NCBI RefSeq assembly: GCF_002237655.1
Contig: NZ_NOKT01000024.1
Location: 62,001-126,000, forward strand
Reading direction: 5' to 3'
From: Streptomyces sp. XY006
GTDB lineage: Bacteria > Actinomycetota > Actinomycetes > Streptomycetales > Streptomycetaceae
DNA length: 64,000 nucleotides
Shown: positions 57,178 to 64,000 of the stretch, in pieces
Layout: every line of letters starts with the position of its first letter
How positions within the stretch are numbered: position 1 is the first letter of the stretch
Program-made: the position numbers and the translations under genes
The notes under the pieces: generated by a model
Seen by the model: the letters and a program-made list of their open reading frames with translations, nothing else
Databases searched by the model: none
What the model was told of the DNA's origin: nothing

Positions 57178-58491
57178 ATGGCGACTGACGCAGGCACCCC
57201 GATCCCCCGCTTCCCGCCCGGCTTCCTGTGGGGCGTGTCCACCTCGGCGCACCAGATCGAGGGCGCGGCCGAGCTGCGCGAGCCGTCGGTGTGGGACGCC
57301 TTCACGGCCGAGCCCGGGCGGGTCAAGGACGGTTCGACGGCGGCGGTGGCCTGCGACCACTTCCACCGCCACCGCGAGGACGTGGCGCTCCTTGCGGACC
57401 TGGGCGTGAACGCCTACCGCTTCTCCGTCTCCTGGCCGCGGGTGCGCTCCGAGGGCGGCCTGGACTTCTACGACCGGCTGGTGGACGACCTGTGCGCGGC
57501 GGACGTCCGCCCGGTGCCGACGCTGTTCCACTGGGACCTGCCGGCGGACCTGGACTGGCTGGAGCGCGACACGGCCGCGCGCTTCGCCGAGTACGTCGCG
57601 CTGGTCGCCGGCCGGCTCGGGGACCGCGTCAGCCGGTGGATCACGCTGAACGAGCCCGCCGAGCACACCCTGCTGGGCCACGCCCTGGGCGTGCACGCGC
57701 CGGGCAGACGGCTGATGTTCGACGCGCTGCCGGTCGCCCACCACCAGCTGCTCGCCCATGGCCTGGCCGTACGCGCCCTGCGCGCCGCCGGCGCCACGGG
57801 CATCGGCATCGCCAACTCGCACGGACCGACCTGGGCGGCCTCGACGGAGGCGGCGGACGTGGAGGCGGCGGACTTCTACGACCTGCTGCTGAACCGGCTG
57901 TTCGCCGATCCGCTGCTGCTGGGCCGCTACCCGGACGGCATCGAGGCGCTGATGCCCGGGGACGTCGAGGCCGATCTGAAGGTGATCGCCGAGCCGATCG
58001 ACTGGTACGGCGTCAACTACTACGCCCCGACCCGGGTGGGCGCACCGCAGGGCACGGAGATCGACTTCGGCGGGGTCACCATGCCGGCGGAACTGCCCTT
58101 CTCCGTGCGGGAGATCGAGGGCCACCCGGTGACCGACTTCGGCTGGCCCGTCGTACCGGAGGGCCTCACGGAGGTCCTCACCGCCTTCCGCGACCGCTAC
58201 GGCGACCGCCTCCCGCCGGTCGTCATCACCGAGAACGGCTGCTCGTACCCGGGCGTGGACGACCAGGACCGCATCGCCTATCTGGACGGCCATCTGCGGG
58301 CCCTGCACCGGGCGCTGGAAGCGGGGGTCGACGTGCGCGGCTACTTCGTCTGGTCGCTGCTGGACAACTTCGAGTGGGCGGAGGGCTACGAGCGCCGGTT
58401 CGGGCTCGTGCACGTGGACTACGCGACGCAGCGGCGCACGCCGAAGGCGTCCTACCGCTGGCTGCGGGACGTGCTCCGGGCGCAGAGATGA
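57178..58491 (+). CDS. GH1 beta-glucosidase
   Basis: 437 aa, no signal peptide, cytoplasmic. Family 1 marks: FPPGFLWGVSTSAHQIEGA near the N-terminus, acid/base Glu in TLNEPAEH (about 159-166), and nucleophile Glu in VVITENGCSYPG (about 348-359), then WSLLDNFEWAEGYERRFGL. Hydrolyses beta-glucosides such as cellobiose. ATG 57178 chosen over 57166, which lies in the probable -10. Its stop overlaps the ATG of an MFS sugar carrier, so uptake and hydrolysis are coupled. Confidence 0.94.
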   Translation: MATDAGTPIPRFPPGFLWGVSTSAHQIEGAAELREPSVWDAFTAEPGRVKDGSTAAVACDHFHRHREDVALLADLGVNAYRFSVSWPRVRSEGGLDFYDRLVDDLCAADVRPVPTLFHWDLPADLDWLERDTAARFAEYVALVAGRLGDRVSRWITLNEPAEHTLLGHALGVHAPGRRLMFDALPVAHHQLLAHGLAVRALRAAGATGIGIANSHGPTWAASTEAADVEAADFYDLLLNRLFADPLLLGRYPDGIEALMPGDVEADLKVIAEPIDWYGVNYYAPTRVGAPQGTEIDFGGVTMPAELPFSVREIEGHPVTDFGWPVVPEGLTEVLTAFRDRYGDRLPPVVITENGCSYPGVDDQDRIAYLDGHLRALHRALEAGVDVRGYFVWSLLDNFEWAEGYERRFGLVHVDYATQRRTPKASYRWLRDVLRAQR

Positions 58492-59747
58492 CCGACCTCT
58501 CGGGAGGCGCACCGGCGGCGCTCGCCGAGCCCGTCGAACGGGTCGGACGGGGCTGGACGGCGTCCCTGTCGCTGGCCAACGGCGCCATCTGGGTGGGCTG
58601 GTACGGCCCGCTGCAGATTCTGCTGGCCTCCCAGGCGGAGGACTTCGCACCGGGTTCCGGCATGTCCAAGGAGACGATGCTGGCGTGGGTGACGGGCGCG
58701 GGCGCGGCGGTGTCGCTGGTCTCCAACCCCTTCTTCGGCGCGCTCTCGGACCGGACCACCTCCCGCCGGGGCCGCCGTACGCCATGGATCGTGGCCGGGG
58801 CGGCGGGCGGGGCGCTGTCGCTGCTGCTGCTCGCGGGCGCGGGCGGTGTGTGGACGATGGCGGCCGGCTGGTGCCTGGTCCAGCTGACCCTGAACGCGGC
58901 GTTCGCGGCGGTGACGGCGGCGGTGCCGGACCGGGTGCCGCGGCTCCAGCGGGGCTCGGTGGGCGGCTGGCTGGGCGCGGCCCAGATCCTCGGCGTGGTC
59001 GGCGGGACGGGTCTCGCGACGGTGGCCGGGGGCATCGGGGCCGGGTACGCGGCGTGCGCGGTGTTCACGGCGGTGGGCGTGCTGCCGTACGTCGTCCGCC
59101 ACCAGGATCTGCGGCTGGCGGCGGCGGACCGGCCCGCCTGGTCGTGGCGCGGCTTCCTGGCCGGGTTCCGGCTGAGCCCGCGCCGGTATCCGGACCTGGC
59201 CTGGGCCTGGCTGACCCGTTTCCTGATCAACCTCAGCAACGCGCTCGTCCTGCTGTACCTGCTGTACTACCTGCGGGACCGCCTGCACTACGGCGATCCC
59301 GACAAGGGCGTGCTGATCCTGACGGCCGTGAACGGCGCGACCCTGCTCGCCACGGTCGTCGTGGGCGGCGTGTGGTCGGACCGCACGGGCCGCCGCAAGC
59401 CGTTCGTGATCTGGTCGGGCCTGCTGATGGCGGTGGCCACGGCGGCCCTGGCCGGCTGGCAGACCTGGCCCGGCGCGATCGTCGCGGCGGCGGTCCTGGG
59501 GGTCGGCTTCGGGGTGTTCACCTCGGTCGACTTCGCGCTGATGACCGATGTCCTGCCGACGGCGCTGGACCGCGGCAAGGACCTGGGTGTGATCAACGTG
59601 GCCAACGCCCTGCCACAGGTCGCGGCGCCCGCCCTCGCCGCGCCGATCGTGACGTACCTGGGCGGCTACCGGGTGCTGTACCTGGTGGCGGCCGTGATCG
59701 GTCTGGCGGGGGCGGTGCTGGTGGGACGGATCAGGGGCGTGGACTGA
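58488..59747 (+). CDS. MFS sugar transporter (beta-glucoside type)
   Basis: 419 aa with 12 membrane helices. Resembles the glycoside-pentoside-hexuronide/SLC45-like MFS group: YGPLQILLASQAEDF in helix 1, GALSDRTTSRRGRRTPWIV (motif A with the RRGRRTP extension) and VVVGGVWSDRTGRRKPFVI in the second half. Coupled by ATGA overlap to the GH1 gene, so the likely cargo is a beta-glucoside. Confidence 0.88.
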   Translation: MTDLSGGAPAALAEPVERVGRGWTASLSLANGAIWVGWYGPLQILLASQAEDFAPGSGMSKETMLAWVTGAGAAVSLVSNPFFGALSDRTTSRRGRRTPWIVAGAAGGALSLLLLAGAGGVWTMAAGWCLVQLTLNAAFAAVTAAVPDRVPRLQRGSVGGWLGAAQILGVVGGTGLATVAGGIGAGYAACAVFTAVGVLPYVVRHQDLRLAAADRPAWSWRGFLAGFRLSPRRYPDLAWAWLTRFLINLSNALVLLYLLYYLRDRLHYGDPDKGVLILTAVNGATLLATVVVGGVWSDRTGRRKPFVIWSGLLMAVATAALAGWQTWPGAIVAAAVLGVGFGVFTSVDFALMTDVLPTALDRGKDLGVINVANALPQVAAPALAAPIVTYLGGYRVLYLVAAVIGLAGAVLVGRIRGVD

Positions 59748-59760
59748 TACCCGCCTGCCT

Positions 59761-60615
59761 CTAGAGGGCGCCGGCGTCCCGGGCCGTCCAGACGCTCGGG
59801 TAGATGGGCCGGAAGCCGAGCTCCCGGCGGATGCGCCGGTTGGACATGATCCCGTGCCACGGGTCGGAATCCGTGTTCCCGTACAGCGCGGCGGGCACCT
59901 CGATGCCGTTGAGCCCGTACAGCTCGACCGTCGTGACGGGGGCGTCGTCGGCGACGTTGTAGACCCGGCCGGCGATGCCCGGGGCGTACAGCAGCCGCAT
60001 CAGGGCCTGGGCGACGTCCGCGTGATGGGCCATCTGCAGGCGCTGGTGCGGGGCCCAGTCCGGCGCCCAGCGCATGGCGTCGGCGAGATGCGGGTCGCCC
60101 TCGCCGTAGACGAAGGGGAGCCGCCCGATCCGGACGTCCAGCCCCTCCATCGCGAGCAGTTCGCGCTCGGCCTCGGCCTTGGACGCGGGGTAGGCGCCCC
60201 ACATCCGGCCGCCGGGGAGGCTCTCGTCCTCCTCGGTCAGCGGGCGTCCCCGCCCGGTGCCGTAGACGTTGCCCGTGCTCACCTGGACGAAGCGCGCCAC
60301 TCCGGCGTTCCGCGCGGCCCGTCCCAGCGCCACCGCCGCGTCCCGGTTGACGGCCCACGCCTCCTCGTCCGGCACCCCGCGGAAGGAGGCGGCGACGTTC
60401 ACCACCGCATCCACTCCGGCGAGCGCCTTGCCGAGCGTCTCCTCCTCCCGCAGGTCCCCCACGGCCACCTGGGCGCCCAGCTCCGCGAAGCGCTCACCGC
60501 GGGCCGCGTCCCGCACCAGGACCCGCACCTGCTCCCCCGGCCGCCGCTGTGCCAGCAGCCGGGGCACGAAGCGCCGTCCGACCTGTCCCGTCGTACCGGT
60601 CACCAATGTCAGCAT
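59761..60615 (-). CDS. NAD(P)-dependent epimerase/reductase (extended SDR)
   Basis: 284 aa. Nucleotide-binding TGTTGQVGRR at residues 6-15, NVAASFRG, catalytic Tyr/Lys in YPASK, and RLPFVYGEGDPHLADAM for substrate binding. GAGGAG precedes ATG 60615. Divergent from the MmyB-type regulator at 60752 (136-bp gap), a recurring actinobacterial arrangement in which the regulator controls the SDR gene. Substrate unknown. Confidence 0.9.
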   Translation of the reverse strand: MLTLVTGTTGQVGRRFVPRLLAQRRPGEQVRVLVRDAARGERFAELGAQVAVGDLREEETLGKALAGVDAVVNVAASFRGVPDEEAWAVNRDAAVALGRAARNAGVARFVQVSTGNVYGTGRGRPLTEEDESLPGGRMWGAYPASKAEAERELLAMEGLDVRIGRLPFVYGEGDPHLADAMRWAPDWAPHQRLQMAHHADVAQALMRLLYAPGIAGRVYNVADDAPVTTVELYGLNGIEVPAALYGNTDSDPWHGIMSNRRIRRELGFRPIYPSVWTARDAGAL

Positions 60616-60751
60616 GATGTGCTCCTCACGCACTGTGTCGCCTGTCGTCGGTGACCAGCCTCGGCGGACGGGACGGCGACCGGGAGAGACCTCCTCATCA
60701 GGGGATCGGCAGTCCCTGGATAAGCCGGCCGGCCTCCCGCACCCTGGAGGG

Positions 60752-61609
60752 GTGAACCGAGCCGAACTCGCCGACTTCCTGCGCCGCGGCCGCGCCCGCC
60801 TGGAGCCCTCCGACGCGGGCCTCACAGCCGGGCCCCGCCGCCGTACGCCGGGGCTGCGCCGCGAGGAGGTGGCCCAGCTGGCCGGCATGTCCGTGGACTA
60901 CTACACGCGGCTGGAGCAGTCCCGGGGCCCGCGCCCCTCGCGCCAGATGCTCAGCGCGCTGGCCCGCGCGCTGCGCCTGACGGAGGACGAGCGAGACCAC
61001 CTCTTCCATCTGACCGGCGAGGAACCGCCCCGCCGTGCGGCGACGAGCACGCACGTTCGCCCGGGGCTGCTGCTGGTCCTGGACCGGCTGCACGACTGCC
61101 CGGCCCTGGTCGTCACCGACTGCGGCGAGGTCCTCGCGCAGAACGCGATGTCGCGGGCGCTGAGCGGTGACCTGCTCGCCCGCCCGCCGCGCGAGCGCAA
61201 CATGCTCCGGCGGTTCTTCCTGGACCCCTCGGCCCAGGCGCTCTTCCCGCCCGAGGACCGCCCGGAGCGCGCCCGCGAGCAGGTGGCCGGCCTGCGCGCG
61301 GTGGCGGCGGCCCGTCCCACGGACCCGGAGCCCGCCGCGCTGGTCGCCGAACTACGCGCCGGGAGCGAGGAGTTCGCCCGCCTCTGGGACGAGCACGAGG
61401 TCGCCGTCCGGCGCGCCTCGACCAAACGCTTCCGGCACCCCGTGGTCGGCGTCCTGGAACTCGACTGCGAGGTCCTCGTCAACTCCGACCACAACCAGCA
61501 ACTGATCGTCCACACCGCCCGCCCTGGCACGGAGTCGTACGAGCGGCTACGGCTGCTGCGGGTGGTGGGCCTGCAGGACCTGACCCCGTCAGAAGCCCAG
61601 ACGCCGTAG
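60752..61609 (+). CDS. XRE-family regulator with MmyB-like ligand-binding domain
   Basis: 285 aa. N-terminal HTH_31/XRE domain (about 25-85: RRTPGLRREEVAQLAGMSVD, YYTRLEQSRGPRPS), then an MmyB-type PAS-like ligand domain (about 105-280) with DCGEVLAQNAMSRAL and HPVVGVLELDCEVLV. Members of this group have been linked to fatty-acid or flavonoid-like ligands. GTG 60752 sits only one or two bases after GGAGGG, an odd spacing, so the mRNA may be leaderless or the start slightly different. A -10-like GATAAG lies at 60718-60723. Its 3' end overlaps the era gene tail by 21 bases. Confidence 0.9.
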   Translation: MNRAELADFLRRGRARLEPSDAGLTAGPRRRTPGLRREEVAQLAGMSVDYYTRLEQSRGPRPSRQMLSALARALRLTEDERDHLFHLTGEEPPRRAATSTHVRPGLLLVLDRLHDCPALVVTDCGEVLAQNAMSRALSGDLLARPPRERNMLRRFFLDPSAQALFPPEDRPERAREQVAGLRAVAAARPTDPEPAALVAELRAGSEEFARLWDEHEVAVRRASTKRFRHPVVGVLELDCEVLVNSDHNQQLIVHTARPGTESYERLRLLRVVGLQDLTPSEAQTP

Positions 61610-62542
61610 CTGCTTGGGGTCGCGCTGCCAGTCCTTGGCCACCTTGACGTGCAGGTCGAGGAAGACCGGCGTGCCCAGCAGCGCCTCGATCTGCTTGCGG
61701 GACTTGATGCCGACCTCCTTCAGGCGCTTGCCCTTGGGGCCGATGATGATCCCCTTCTGGCTGGGGCGCTCGATGAAGAGGTTGGCGTGGATGTCGAGGA
61801 GGGGCTTGTCGGCGGGGCGGTCCTCGCGCGGGAGCATCTCCTCCACCACGACCGCGATGGAGTGCGGCAGCTCGTCGCGCACGCCCTCCAGGGCCGCCTC
61901 GCGGATCAGCTCGGCCACCATGACCTGCTCCGGCTCGTCCGTCAGGTCGCCCTCGGGGTAGAGGGCGGGGCCCTCCGGGAGCATCGGGATCAGCAGGTCC
62001 GCCAGCAGCTCGACCTGCTTGTCGCCGACCGCCGAGACCGGGACGATCTCCGCCCACTCGATGCCCAGCTCCTTGCCGAGCTGGTCGATCGCGATCAGCT
62101 GCTCGGCCAGGGTCTTGCCGTCGACGAGGTCCGTCTTGGTGACGATCGCGACCTTCGGCGACTTCTTGATGCCCGCGAGCTCCTTGGCGATGAACCGGTC
62201 GCCCGGGCCGATCCTCTCGTTGGCCGGCAGGCAGAAGCCGATCACGTCGACCTCGGCCCAGGTGGTGCGCACCACGTCGTTCAGACGCTCGCCGAGCAGC
62301 GTGCGCGGCTTGTGCAGCCCCGGGGTGTCCACCAGGATCAGCTGCGCGTCCGGCCGGTGCACGATGCCCCGCACGGTGTGCCGCGTCGTCTGCGGCCGGT
62401 TGGAGGTGATCGCCACCTTCTGCCCGACCAGAGCGTTCGTCAGCGTGGACTTGCCCGCGTTGGGACGGCCCACGAAGCAGGCGAAGCCGGCGCGGTGGAC
62501 GGTCTCGCCCGACTCTTCGGATGACTGCATGCGAACGCTCAT
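61589..62542 (-). CDS. era: GTPase Era
   Basis: 317 aa. GTPase needed for 16S rRNA maturation and small-subunit assembly. G1 GRPNAGKST (about 25-33), G2 around TSNRPQTTRH, G3 DTPG (LILVDTPGLHKPR), G4 TKTD, and a C-terminal KH domain with IIIGPKGKRLKEVG (about 260-275) that binds rRNA. ATG 62542 chosen (MSVRMQSSEES); ATG 62530 is possible. Convergent with and overlapping the XRE regulator by 21 bp. Confidence 0.97.
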   Translation of the reverse strand: MSVRMQSSEESGETVHRAGFACFVGRPNAGKSTLTNALVGQKVAITSNRPQTTRHTVRGIVHRPDAQLILVDTPGLHKPRTLLGERLNDVVRTTWAEVDVIGFCLPANERIGPGDRFIAKELAGIKKSPKVAIVTKTDLVDGKTLAEQLIAIDQLGKELGIEWAEIVPVSAVGDKQVELLADLLIPMLPEGPALYPEGDLTDEPEQVMVAELIREAALEGVRDELPHSIAVVVEEMLPREDRPADKPLLDIHANLFIERPSQKGIIIGPKGKRLKEVGIKSRKQIEALLGTPVFLDLHVKVAKDWQRDPKQLRRLGF

Positions 62543-62631
62543 GCCGCCCATTCTCCCTGATCCAACCGACCCCTCCGCACCGCGGCCCGCGCACGCCCGG
62601 CCGGGTGAGCTTTCCGAAACCCTCACGCAAC

Positions 62632-62669
62632 GAAACACCGCGGAAACACGGCCGTGCGCCGCCGGAAAC
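62632..62669 (+). promoter_or_regulatory. Probable GlnR binding site of the ammonium transporter gene
   Basis: Four half-sites spaced exactly 11 bp apart: GAAAC (62632), GAAAC (62643), GTGCG (62654), GAAAC (62665). The GlnR consensus as I know it is gTnAc-n6-GaAAc repeated at 22 bp; the two GaAAc positions (62643 and 62665) are perfect and the gTnAc positions partial. It lies 55-92 bases before the start codon. Confidence 0.65.
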
Positions 62670-62723
62670 GCACACCCGTGAACCTCTGACGAGCCCCCGC
62701 AGCGTCCACCCGTTGGAGACCCC

Positions 62724-64000
62724 GTGCCCCTGGCCGCCGCACACGCCGACACCGGCGACACCGCCTGGCTGCTCGCCGCCACCGCCCTCGTCCTGCTGAT
62801 GACCCCGGGCCTGGCCCTCTTCTACGGCGGCATGGTCCGCACCAAGAGCGTCCTGAACATGCTGATGATGAGCTTCGTGTCGATCGCCCTGGTGACGGTG
62901 GTGTGGCTGGCGGCCGGCTACTCGCTGGCCTTCGGCGAGGACGCCGCGGGAGGGCTCATCGGCGGGCTCGGCCACGCCGGCATGGCCGGCCTCGGCCCGG
63001 ACAGCGTGCAGGGCACGGTCCCCACGCTGCTGTTCGCCACCTTCCAGCTCACCTTCGCGATCATCACGGCCGCGCTGGTCAGCGGCGCGGTCGCCGACCG
63101 GGCCAAGTTCGGGGCCTGGCTGGTCTTCGTACCGGTATGGGCGCTGCTCGTATACGTTCCGGTCGCGCACTGGGTGTGGGGCCCGGGCGGCTGGATCCTG
63201 GAGCGGCTCGGCGCGCTCGACTTCGCGGGCGGGCTCCCCGTGGAGATCGTCTCCGGCGCCTCGGGACTGGCGTTGTGCCTGGTCCTGGGCCCGCGCATGG
63301 GCTTCAAGAAGGAGGCCATGCGGCCGCACAACCTGCCCATGGTGATGCTGGGCGCCGGGCTGCTGTGGTTCGGCTGGTTCGGCTTCAACGCCGGCTCCGC
63401 GCTCGGCGCCAACGGCCTCGCGGCGGCCGCGTTCCTCAACACCCTCGCCGCGGGCTGCACCGGCCTGCTCGGCTGGCTCTTCGTCGAGCAGAAGCGCGAC
63501 GGCCACCCGACCACGCTGGGCGCCGCCTCCGGCGCGGTCGCGGGCCTGGTCGCCATCACACCGTCGTGCGGGTCCGTCTCCCTGCTCGGCGCCCTGGTCG
63601 TCGGCCTCACCGCCGGCACGGTGTGCTCGTACGCCGTGAGCTGGAAGTTCAAGCTGAACTACGACGACTCCCTGGACGTCGTCGGCGTCCATCTGGTCGG
63701 CGGGGTCATCGGCACCCTCCTCATCGGCGTCTTCGCCGTCGAGGAGATGACCGGCGGCGCCGAGGGCCTGCTGTACGGCGGCGGGCTCGGCCAGCTGGGC
63801 AGGCAGCTGGTGGCCGTGGTGGTCGTCGCGGCGTACGCGTTCGGGGTGACGTACGGGATCGGCAAGCTGATCGAGGTCACGATGGGCCTGCGCGCGAGCG
63901 AGGAGCAGGAGCAGACCGGCCTGGACCTTACGGTGCACGCCGAGACGGCCTACGATCACGGGGTCCTGGGCCACGGCGCCCCGGTCTCCTCCTCCGTCGT
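62724..64000 (+). CDS. amt: Ammonium transporter (Amt family), 3' end outside window
   Basis: 425 codons are seen and the frame is open to the window end. Eleven hydrophobic helices with Amt signatures: MTPGLALFYGGMVRTKSVLN in helix 1-2, twin pore histidines H149 (VAHWVWGPGG) and H323 (VVGVHLVGGVIGT), and GASGLALCLVLG. GTG 62724 has GGAG six bases upstream. The N-terminus is short and lacks a long signal peptide. In many actinobacteria amtB is followed by glnK and glnD; that part is outside. A probable GlnR site upstream suggests induction in nitrogen limitation, like the nirBD genes at the other end of the window. Confidence 0.95.
   Translation, partial: MPLAAAHADTGDTAWLLAATALVLLMTPGLALFYGGMVRTKSVLNMLMMSFVSIALVTVVWLAAGYSLAFGEDAAGGLIGGLGHAGMAGLGPDSVQGTVPTLLFATFQLTFAIITAALVSGAVADRAKFGAWLVFVPVWALLVYVPVAHWVWGPGGWILERLGALDFAGGLPVEIVSGASGLALCLVLGPRMGFKKEAMRPHNLPMVMLGAGLLWFGWFGFNAGSALGANGLAAAAFLNTLAAGCTGLLGWLFVEQKRDGHPTTLGAASGAVAGLVAITPSCGSVSLLGALVVGLTAGTVCSYAVSWKFKLNYDDSLDVVGVHLVGGVIGTLLIGVFAVEEMTGGAEGLLYGGGLGQLGRQLVAVVVVAAYAFGVTYGIGKLIEVTMGLRASEEQEQTGLDLTVHAETAYDHGVLGHGAPVSSSV

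Follow-up and report, generated by a model that had tools for sequence, protein, structure and literature searches.

The window analysed here, meaning the whole stretch of 64,000 nucleotides of DNA from Streptomyces sp. XY006, ends within a gene for an ammonium transporter, called amt2 in this work. The gene lies on the plus strand at 62724–64000, continues for 34 bases beyond the window (L003:1724-3034 in the fetched locus) and begins with a GTG start codon, before which stands a ribosome-binding site, GGAG, at 62715–62718 on the same strand. Its product of 436 aa contains a full-length PF00909 domain (E 3.9e-128, 428 bits, profile positions 1-399 of 399). The stop codon of amt2 (L003:3032-3034) is joined by an ATGA overlap to a second plus-strand gene, glnK2, which is located wholly beyond the window end (L003:3031-3369, or 64031-64369 on the window scale) and encodes a PII protein of 112 aa. 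GlnK2 falls into the GlnK/PII family PF00543, keeps YRGAEY and the T-loop with the tyrosine that is modified, and has a P-II protein as its best PDB match. The genes downstream of glnK2 are carried on the opposite strand. On the other side, the divergent neighbour of amt2 is era (61596–62542, minus strand), a gene with GTPase and KH domains, and the two are separated by a gap of 181 bp (62543-62723) which harbours an array of predicted GlnR boxes.

The array covers 62605-62669 and is composed of three boxes in the order a3-b3, a1-b1, a2-b2, all on the plus strand. The predicted box 3 (62605–62620) reads GTGAG-n6-GAAAC, the predicted box 1 (62632–62647) GAAAC-n6-GAAAC, and the predicted box 2 (62654–62669) GTGCG-n6-GAAAC, with GTGCG as an atypical a2 half-site. 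The first-pass annotation had described only the last four half-sites, read directly from the window at 62632-62669 as GAAAC-n6-GAAAC-n6-GTGCG-n6-GAAAC. It claimed GAAAC half-sites in 11-bp phase, two of them at the exact GaAAc positions, and the window sequence bears this out: the half-sites start at 62632, 62643, 62654 (the atypical one) and 62665 in exact 11-bp phase, which places the GAAAC copies at 62632, 62643 and 62665 in 11/22-bp phase. Box 3 lies further upstream, its b3 (62616) standing 16 bp before a1 (62632). The copies at 62643 and 62665 are the exact b-sites (GaAAc) of the published a-b-a-b GlnR box, given in an excerpt of PMC10704036 for S. coelicolor as gTnAc-n6-GaAAc-n6-GtnAC-n6-GAAAc. 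The 5+6+5 half-site arrangement, GaAAc at the b positions and the 11-bp phase of such a box are all found here. At the a positions, where the consensus is gTnAc, the window has GAAAC (a1), GTGCG (a2) and GTGAG (a3); the atypical a2 and the GAAAC at a1 count against the GlnR-box reading. A listed GlnR box of S. avermitilis is GAAAC-n6-GTATC. Furthermore, a conserved stretch follows 3' of the boxes at 62675–62697 (plus strand), with the consensus cCgGTGAccCTCtGACGagcCC in the conservation profile and the block GTGAccCTCtGACGagcCC at 62678-62697, and it is likely to be the core promoter or start region. A sigma-70 consensus scan of L003:1500-3900 gave no match, and no RNA elements were detected at Rfam gathering thresholds in positions 58000-64000 of the window.

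The rarity of the array was assessed at several levels. In 20,000 dinucleotide-shuffled versions of the 181-bp gap between era and amt2, the exact pattern GAAAC-n6-GAAAC-n17-GAAAC never appeared. Throughout the genome (8,250,466 bases searched on 73 contigs), exact GAAAC-n17-GAAAC has only two sites, one upstream of amtB on contig 13 and the other upstream of amt2; with at most one mismatch the pattern has 88 matches, compared with 33 for a reversed control pattern. Within the 64-kb window, GAAAC-n6-GAAAC with at most one mismatch gives two matches, both in the array, against 0.52 expected, and as 11 of 100 shuffles reach two, this pair alone is not decisive. The looser GTNAC-n6-GAAAC with two mismatches showed no enrichment in the window (71 observed vs 80.5 expected).

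The array is also widely conserved. A scan of named genomes, covering Streptomyces, Kitasatospora, Streptacidiphilus and one 'Actinobacteria bacterium' record, supplied the best 80 loci among the matches listed, and 79 of these (L027 was dropped, its contig beginning at the gene) together with the window gave 80 upstream regions. The S. lincolnensis ortholog of amt2 is L061. In these regions, which belong to related species and are not independent, the a1-b1-b2 pattern is present exactly in 71 and in relaxed form in all 80 (shuffled means 0 and 0.1), while box 3, as GTGAG-n6/7-G[AT]AAC, is present in 76 (shuffled mean 0). The profile anchored on the relaxed pattern has the consensus GtGag, gAAAC, GAAAC-gtcaCg-GAAAC-acaccc-GTaCg-n6-GAAAC, then cCgGTGAccCTCtGACGagcCC; the 99-100% conservation of its box 1 columns is partly ensured by the anchor pattern, which favours the letters of a1, b1 and b2 but has no such effect on box 3, on a2 or on the block that follows b2. 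The shuffles, the conservation and the genomic uniqueness together rule out a chance origin of the repeats.

It had been suggested in the first-pass annotation that the main amtB-glnK-glnD operon lies elsewhere and that this gene may be a second, nitrogen-controlled transporter. Both suggestions are supported. The genome holds two PF00909 genes, and the canonical operon amtB-glnK-glnD-ffh is found on contig 13, with GTCAC-n6-GAAAC-n17-GAAAC upstream of amtB. The annotation had further proposed that glnK and glnD following directly after position 64000 would mark this as the main operon. Since glnK does follow directly and glnD does not, half of that arrangement is seen. GlnD-type domain matches in the genome are confined to contig 13 (glnD) and contig 20, where the matching 1015-aa frame was taken for glnE. 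The adjoining glnK is the one point in favour of the idea that amt2 belongs to the main amtB operon or that its repeats are accidental; with a complete amtB-glnK-glnD-ffh set on contig 13, which rules out main-operon identity, and with chance excluded by shuffles and conservation, the probability left for this idea is negligible. Moreover, the genome encodes a GlnR homologue (L204:1066-1845), which hits 4o1h, an entry named GlnR, with E 1.1e-27 and has its best match in 8hih (E 6.9e-91), a GlnR structure. The layout, genomic uniqueness and conservation of the array strongly support the predicted GlnR-type control of amt2 by nitrogen, and the gene for the regulator is present.

The known amtB promoter offers the nearest point of comparison. 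According to a portion of PMC5826061, the S. coelicolor amtB promoter has three boxes, a3-b3, a1-b1 and a2-b2, of which a2 is atypical, lies at -35 and is dispensable. The Streptomyces amtB-glnK-glnD operon (SCO5583-5585) resembles amt2-glnK2 in that an Amt gene is followed by a PII gene behind three GlnR boxes with an atypical a2 (same portion of PMC5826061). The likeness extends to the exact GAAAC-n17-GAAAC at b1-b2, present in all 30 amtB promoters examined, that of this genome included. However, the amt2 operon is without glnD, its product is 57% identical to that of amtB, and a glutamate replaces the first pore histidine. The promoters differ as well: in amtB, b3 is GTAAC, located 20 bp before a1 (30/30 promoters), and a3 is GTTCA, whereas in amt2, b3 is GAAAC, located 16-18 bp before a1 (16 bp in 61 and 18 bp in 14 of 79 named amt2 regions, with no clear b3 in 4), and a3 is GTGAG. 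The PHO-like motif GTTCA precedes b3 in 27 of the 30 amtB promoters (L002:1275-1279 in this genome) and is found near the array in just 1 of 79 amt2 regions; the window carries GTGAG at 62605-62609 where amtB has GTTCA. As the a3-b3 box of amtB is contested by PhoP (PMC5826061, in the portion available) and GTTCA is so scarce at amt2, PhoP competition may be absent there. Phosphate cross-control may accordingly be wired differently in amt2 and amtB, judging by their promoter sequences.

The same evidence bears on the identity of the regulator. Excerpts of PMC10704036 report that MtrA acts on nitrogen genes, sometimes opposing GlnR, and that the amtB promoter is a target of PhoP, AfsQ1 and GlnRII; the chief user of the boxes before amt2 could then be one of these four OmpR-type regulators instead of GlnR, whether or not it competes with GlnR. 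We consider this unlikely, given that S. coelicolor GlnR has 11-bp phasing of GAAAC b-sites as its signature and that GTTCA is nearly missing from amt2 regions.

The amt2 gene occurs in part of the genus. Among 199 Streptomyces genomes, the present one included, 63 carry a match with 75% identity or more and over 650 bits, and the lower matches listed do not exceed 62%. Its presence in only 63 of 199 genomes shows that amt2 is dispensable. Two of the 63 matches have an in-frame stop (G070:C66:38615-39877 and G176:C43:394166-395467) and are possible pseudogenes. A same-strand PII gene is located downstream of amt2 in 79 of the best 80 named loci, the remaining one (L063) ending at a contig edge, and the distance is within 60 nt in 76. 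In three loci (L041, L054 and L066), the PII gene is ~1.3-1.4 kb from amt2, behind an opposite-strand IS605-type OrfB gene. This TnpB-like gene with a Cas12f1-like domain splits amt2 from glnK2 on the minus strand at L041:3823-5034, L054:3887-5053 and L066:3851-5053, and a like OrfB frame is also present between the two genes in L114.

Additionally, era is within the flank in 74 of the best 80 named loci; L027 is cut at the contig edge, and the flanks of L065, L076, L078, L080 and L083 showed no era. These five loci are informative as to which gene the array serves. Lying in the divergent era-amt2 gap, it might control era rather than amt2, but the boxes hold their place and orientation before amt2 in the five loci, and the array is absent, in its exact and its relaxed form alike, from the era loci of 12 genomes picked for lacking amt2. 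Control of era is thus very improbable. Two of these 12 loci illustrate how the operon disappears. In L192 (genome G007), era is kept, only the last 57 codons of amt2 survive, the boxes are gone and glnK2 is intact. In L193, era stands beside the genes that in the present genome lie beyond glnK2, with neither amt2 nor glnK2 between them. These two arrangements indicate that loss of amt2 by deletion occurs.

The differing N-terminus of the transporter, remarked on in the first-pass annotation, is real but not what matters most. When Amt2 is aligned to solved AmtB structures, the sole means by which pore residues were placed, Glu174 falls at the first twin-His position and the second histidine is kept. 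Glu174 aligns with the glutamate in the sequence of the 2now entry, and it sets Amt2 outside the canonical twin-His (His-His) AmtB subtype. In fetched locus sets which may repeat genomes, glutamate holds this position in all 116 Streptomycetaceae amt2 copies and in all 13 relatives from other families, and histidine in 30/30 Streptomyces amtB copies and 8/8 other Amts; once identical and short sequences are removed, the counts are 122/122 Glu in the Amt2 group and 38/38 His in other Amts. A maximum-likelihood tree of 58 chosen rows (34 Glu and 24 His, the two Amts of this genome included, midpoint root) splits the Glu-type Amts off at a branch whose support is 100/99. The Phe gate, the Trp148-like and Asp160-like residues and the second pore His are retained in Amt2, based on the 2now alignment and motif positions. 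Two further positions set the groups apart, with Ser177 in 118/122 Glu-type proteins (Cys in 4) and Ser180 in 122/122, and alanine at these positions in 38/38 and 36/38 of the His-type. Glu174, Ser177 and Ser180 may form a polar stripe on one helix, which might hydrate the pore.

A glutamate at this site has precedents. Yeast Mep1/Mep3 and the engineered E. coli AmtB variant H168E (PDB 2now) likewise have Glu at the first twin-His with the second His kept; unlike the fungal proteins and the engineered variant, Amt2 represents a natural bacterial group, accompanied in Streptomycetaceae by a PII gene and a GlnR-type promoter. Glutamate at the first pore His is called 'the only common natural variant' in an excerpt of PMC3647058, with fungal proteins cited. 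The available part of PMC9040831 gives 22.28 nA for AmtB H168E vs 3.38 nA for the wild type, and a Km of 12.87 mM vs 0.8 mM. The variant is described there as highly active in liposomes with no potassium current, and yeast growth on 1 mM ammonium was not rescued by it within 3 days, an outcome that the authors read as toxic influx. The discussion of that paper proposes that transporter and channel mechanisms coexist in single variants and states that the natural occurrence of Glu in Mep1/Mep3 had been unclear until the model presented there.

These precedents are relevant to whether Amt2 transports at all. With its first pore His replaced and its gene paired with a PII gene, Amt2 could serve as a sensor, or sequester PII as a non-conducting decoy, and the glnK2 of L192, still open although its amt2 is cut to a remnant, leans in the same direction. 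Nevertheless, the remaining inspected pore landmarks are kept and the liposome activity of AmtB H168E is high (PMC9040831, in part), which makes a non-transporting role improbable.

The partner protein is likewise one of two. The genome has two PII genes, and GlnK2 is 83% identical to GlnK1 at the protein level. The Amt pair is at 57%. Either the PII protein is much more strongly conserved, or its gene was duplicated later or underwent conversion. A second PII beside GlnK is also known in S. hygroscopicus var. ascomyceticus, where 'GlnB' (gene 1_2537) is 66.96% identical to its GlnK, compared with 83% for the pair here, and is reported to inhibit acetyl/propionyl-CoA carboxylase (PMC8187598, excerpt). 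Its authors, in the same excerpt, regard it as the earliest example of an actinobacterium with two types of PII; a second Streptomyces PII as such is therefore already in print. The literature matches listed name neither a second Streptomyces amt-glnK pair nor a bacterial Glu-type Amt, which does not establish their absence from print.

Glu-type Amts extend beyond the Streptomycetaceae. The best 30 matches in a class-wide search of 296 genomes consisted of 9 in the genus, 8 of His-type and 13 of Glu-type elsewhere, the last falling into three families (2 in f17, 9 in f4 and 2 in f31). Relaxed phased boxes precede 8 of these 13 genes and are lacking before 5, and the exact b1-n17-b2 is found in 5/13. 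The PII gene is present in both f31 loci, and none was found in the fetched flank of the f17 and f4 loci. In family f4 (L143-L151), GlnR-like phased boxes occur in 6/9 loci, with none in L143, L145 and L148. Gene neighbours suggest that f4 represents mycobacteria, in which case its Glu-type Amts could be amtA. In M. smegmatis, amtA and amt1 (MSMEG_4635 and MSMEG_6259) are similar to amt2 as extra Amts with GlnR ChIP-seq peaks, described as GlnR-regulated in a portion of PMC3662644; unlike amt2, that portion describes no adjoining glnK for them. The M. smegmatis amtA may thus be the Glu-type ortholog that f4 represents, with 69-72% identity for f4.

Taken together, amt2-glnK2 is most probably (we would say about 85%) a second ammonium-uptake operon, activated by GlnR under nitrogen limitation and specifying a Glu-pored channel gated by PII. 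This reading is founded on the layout, uniqueness and conservation of the sites, the gene order, the fixed glutamate, the GlnR gene and the two PII genes. Points that speak against it are the departures of a1 and a2 from the consensus, a b3-a1 spacing unlike that of amtB, the presence of amt2 in only 63 of 199 genomes, the 5 of 13 Glu-type genes elsewhere that lack such boxes, and the missing yeast growth and potassium current of AmtB H168E. When nitrogen becomes limiting, GlnR, a response regulator, would occupy the boxes a3-b3, a1-b1 and a2-b2 before amt2 and bring in RNA polymerase; the weak a2 would lie at -35, an arrangement already proposed for amtB. From their ATGA overlap, amt2 and glnK2 would be made together. 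Amt2 is expected to form a trimeric ammonium channel with a Glu-His pore in place of His-His and, judging from AmtB H168E and from yeast Mep1/Mep3, might conduct more ammonium at lower affinity, with both flux and Km raised. When nitrogen returns, GlnK2 (or GlnK1) would plug Amt2; the one GlnD of the cell would be expected to act on both PII proteins. It would be odd for starvation to switch on a low-affinity path unless this were meant for short ammonium pulses, a use with which a PII valve alongside would fit.

The unexpected part of the locus is the Glu-type pore group with its adjoining PII. A bacterial Amt with a fixed glutamate and a His-His AmtB, in the same cell and behind the same kind of promoter, provide a clean natural pair for testing the residue, and the pair also allows PII gating of a Glu-type pore to be tested. 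About a third of the sampled Streptomyces genomes (63/199) have a second Amt of one kind beside amtB. A more tentative and still doubtful extension is that actinomycete Glu-pore Amts are the natural bacterial counterpart of fungal Mep1/Mep3, a high-flux and partly channel-like path for NH4+, which in Streptomyces would be equipped with a PII valve and a GlnR promoter, maybe without the phosphate (PhoP) input of amtB.
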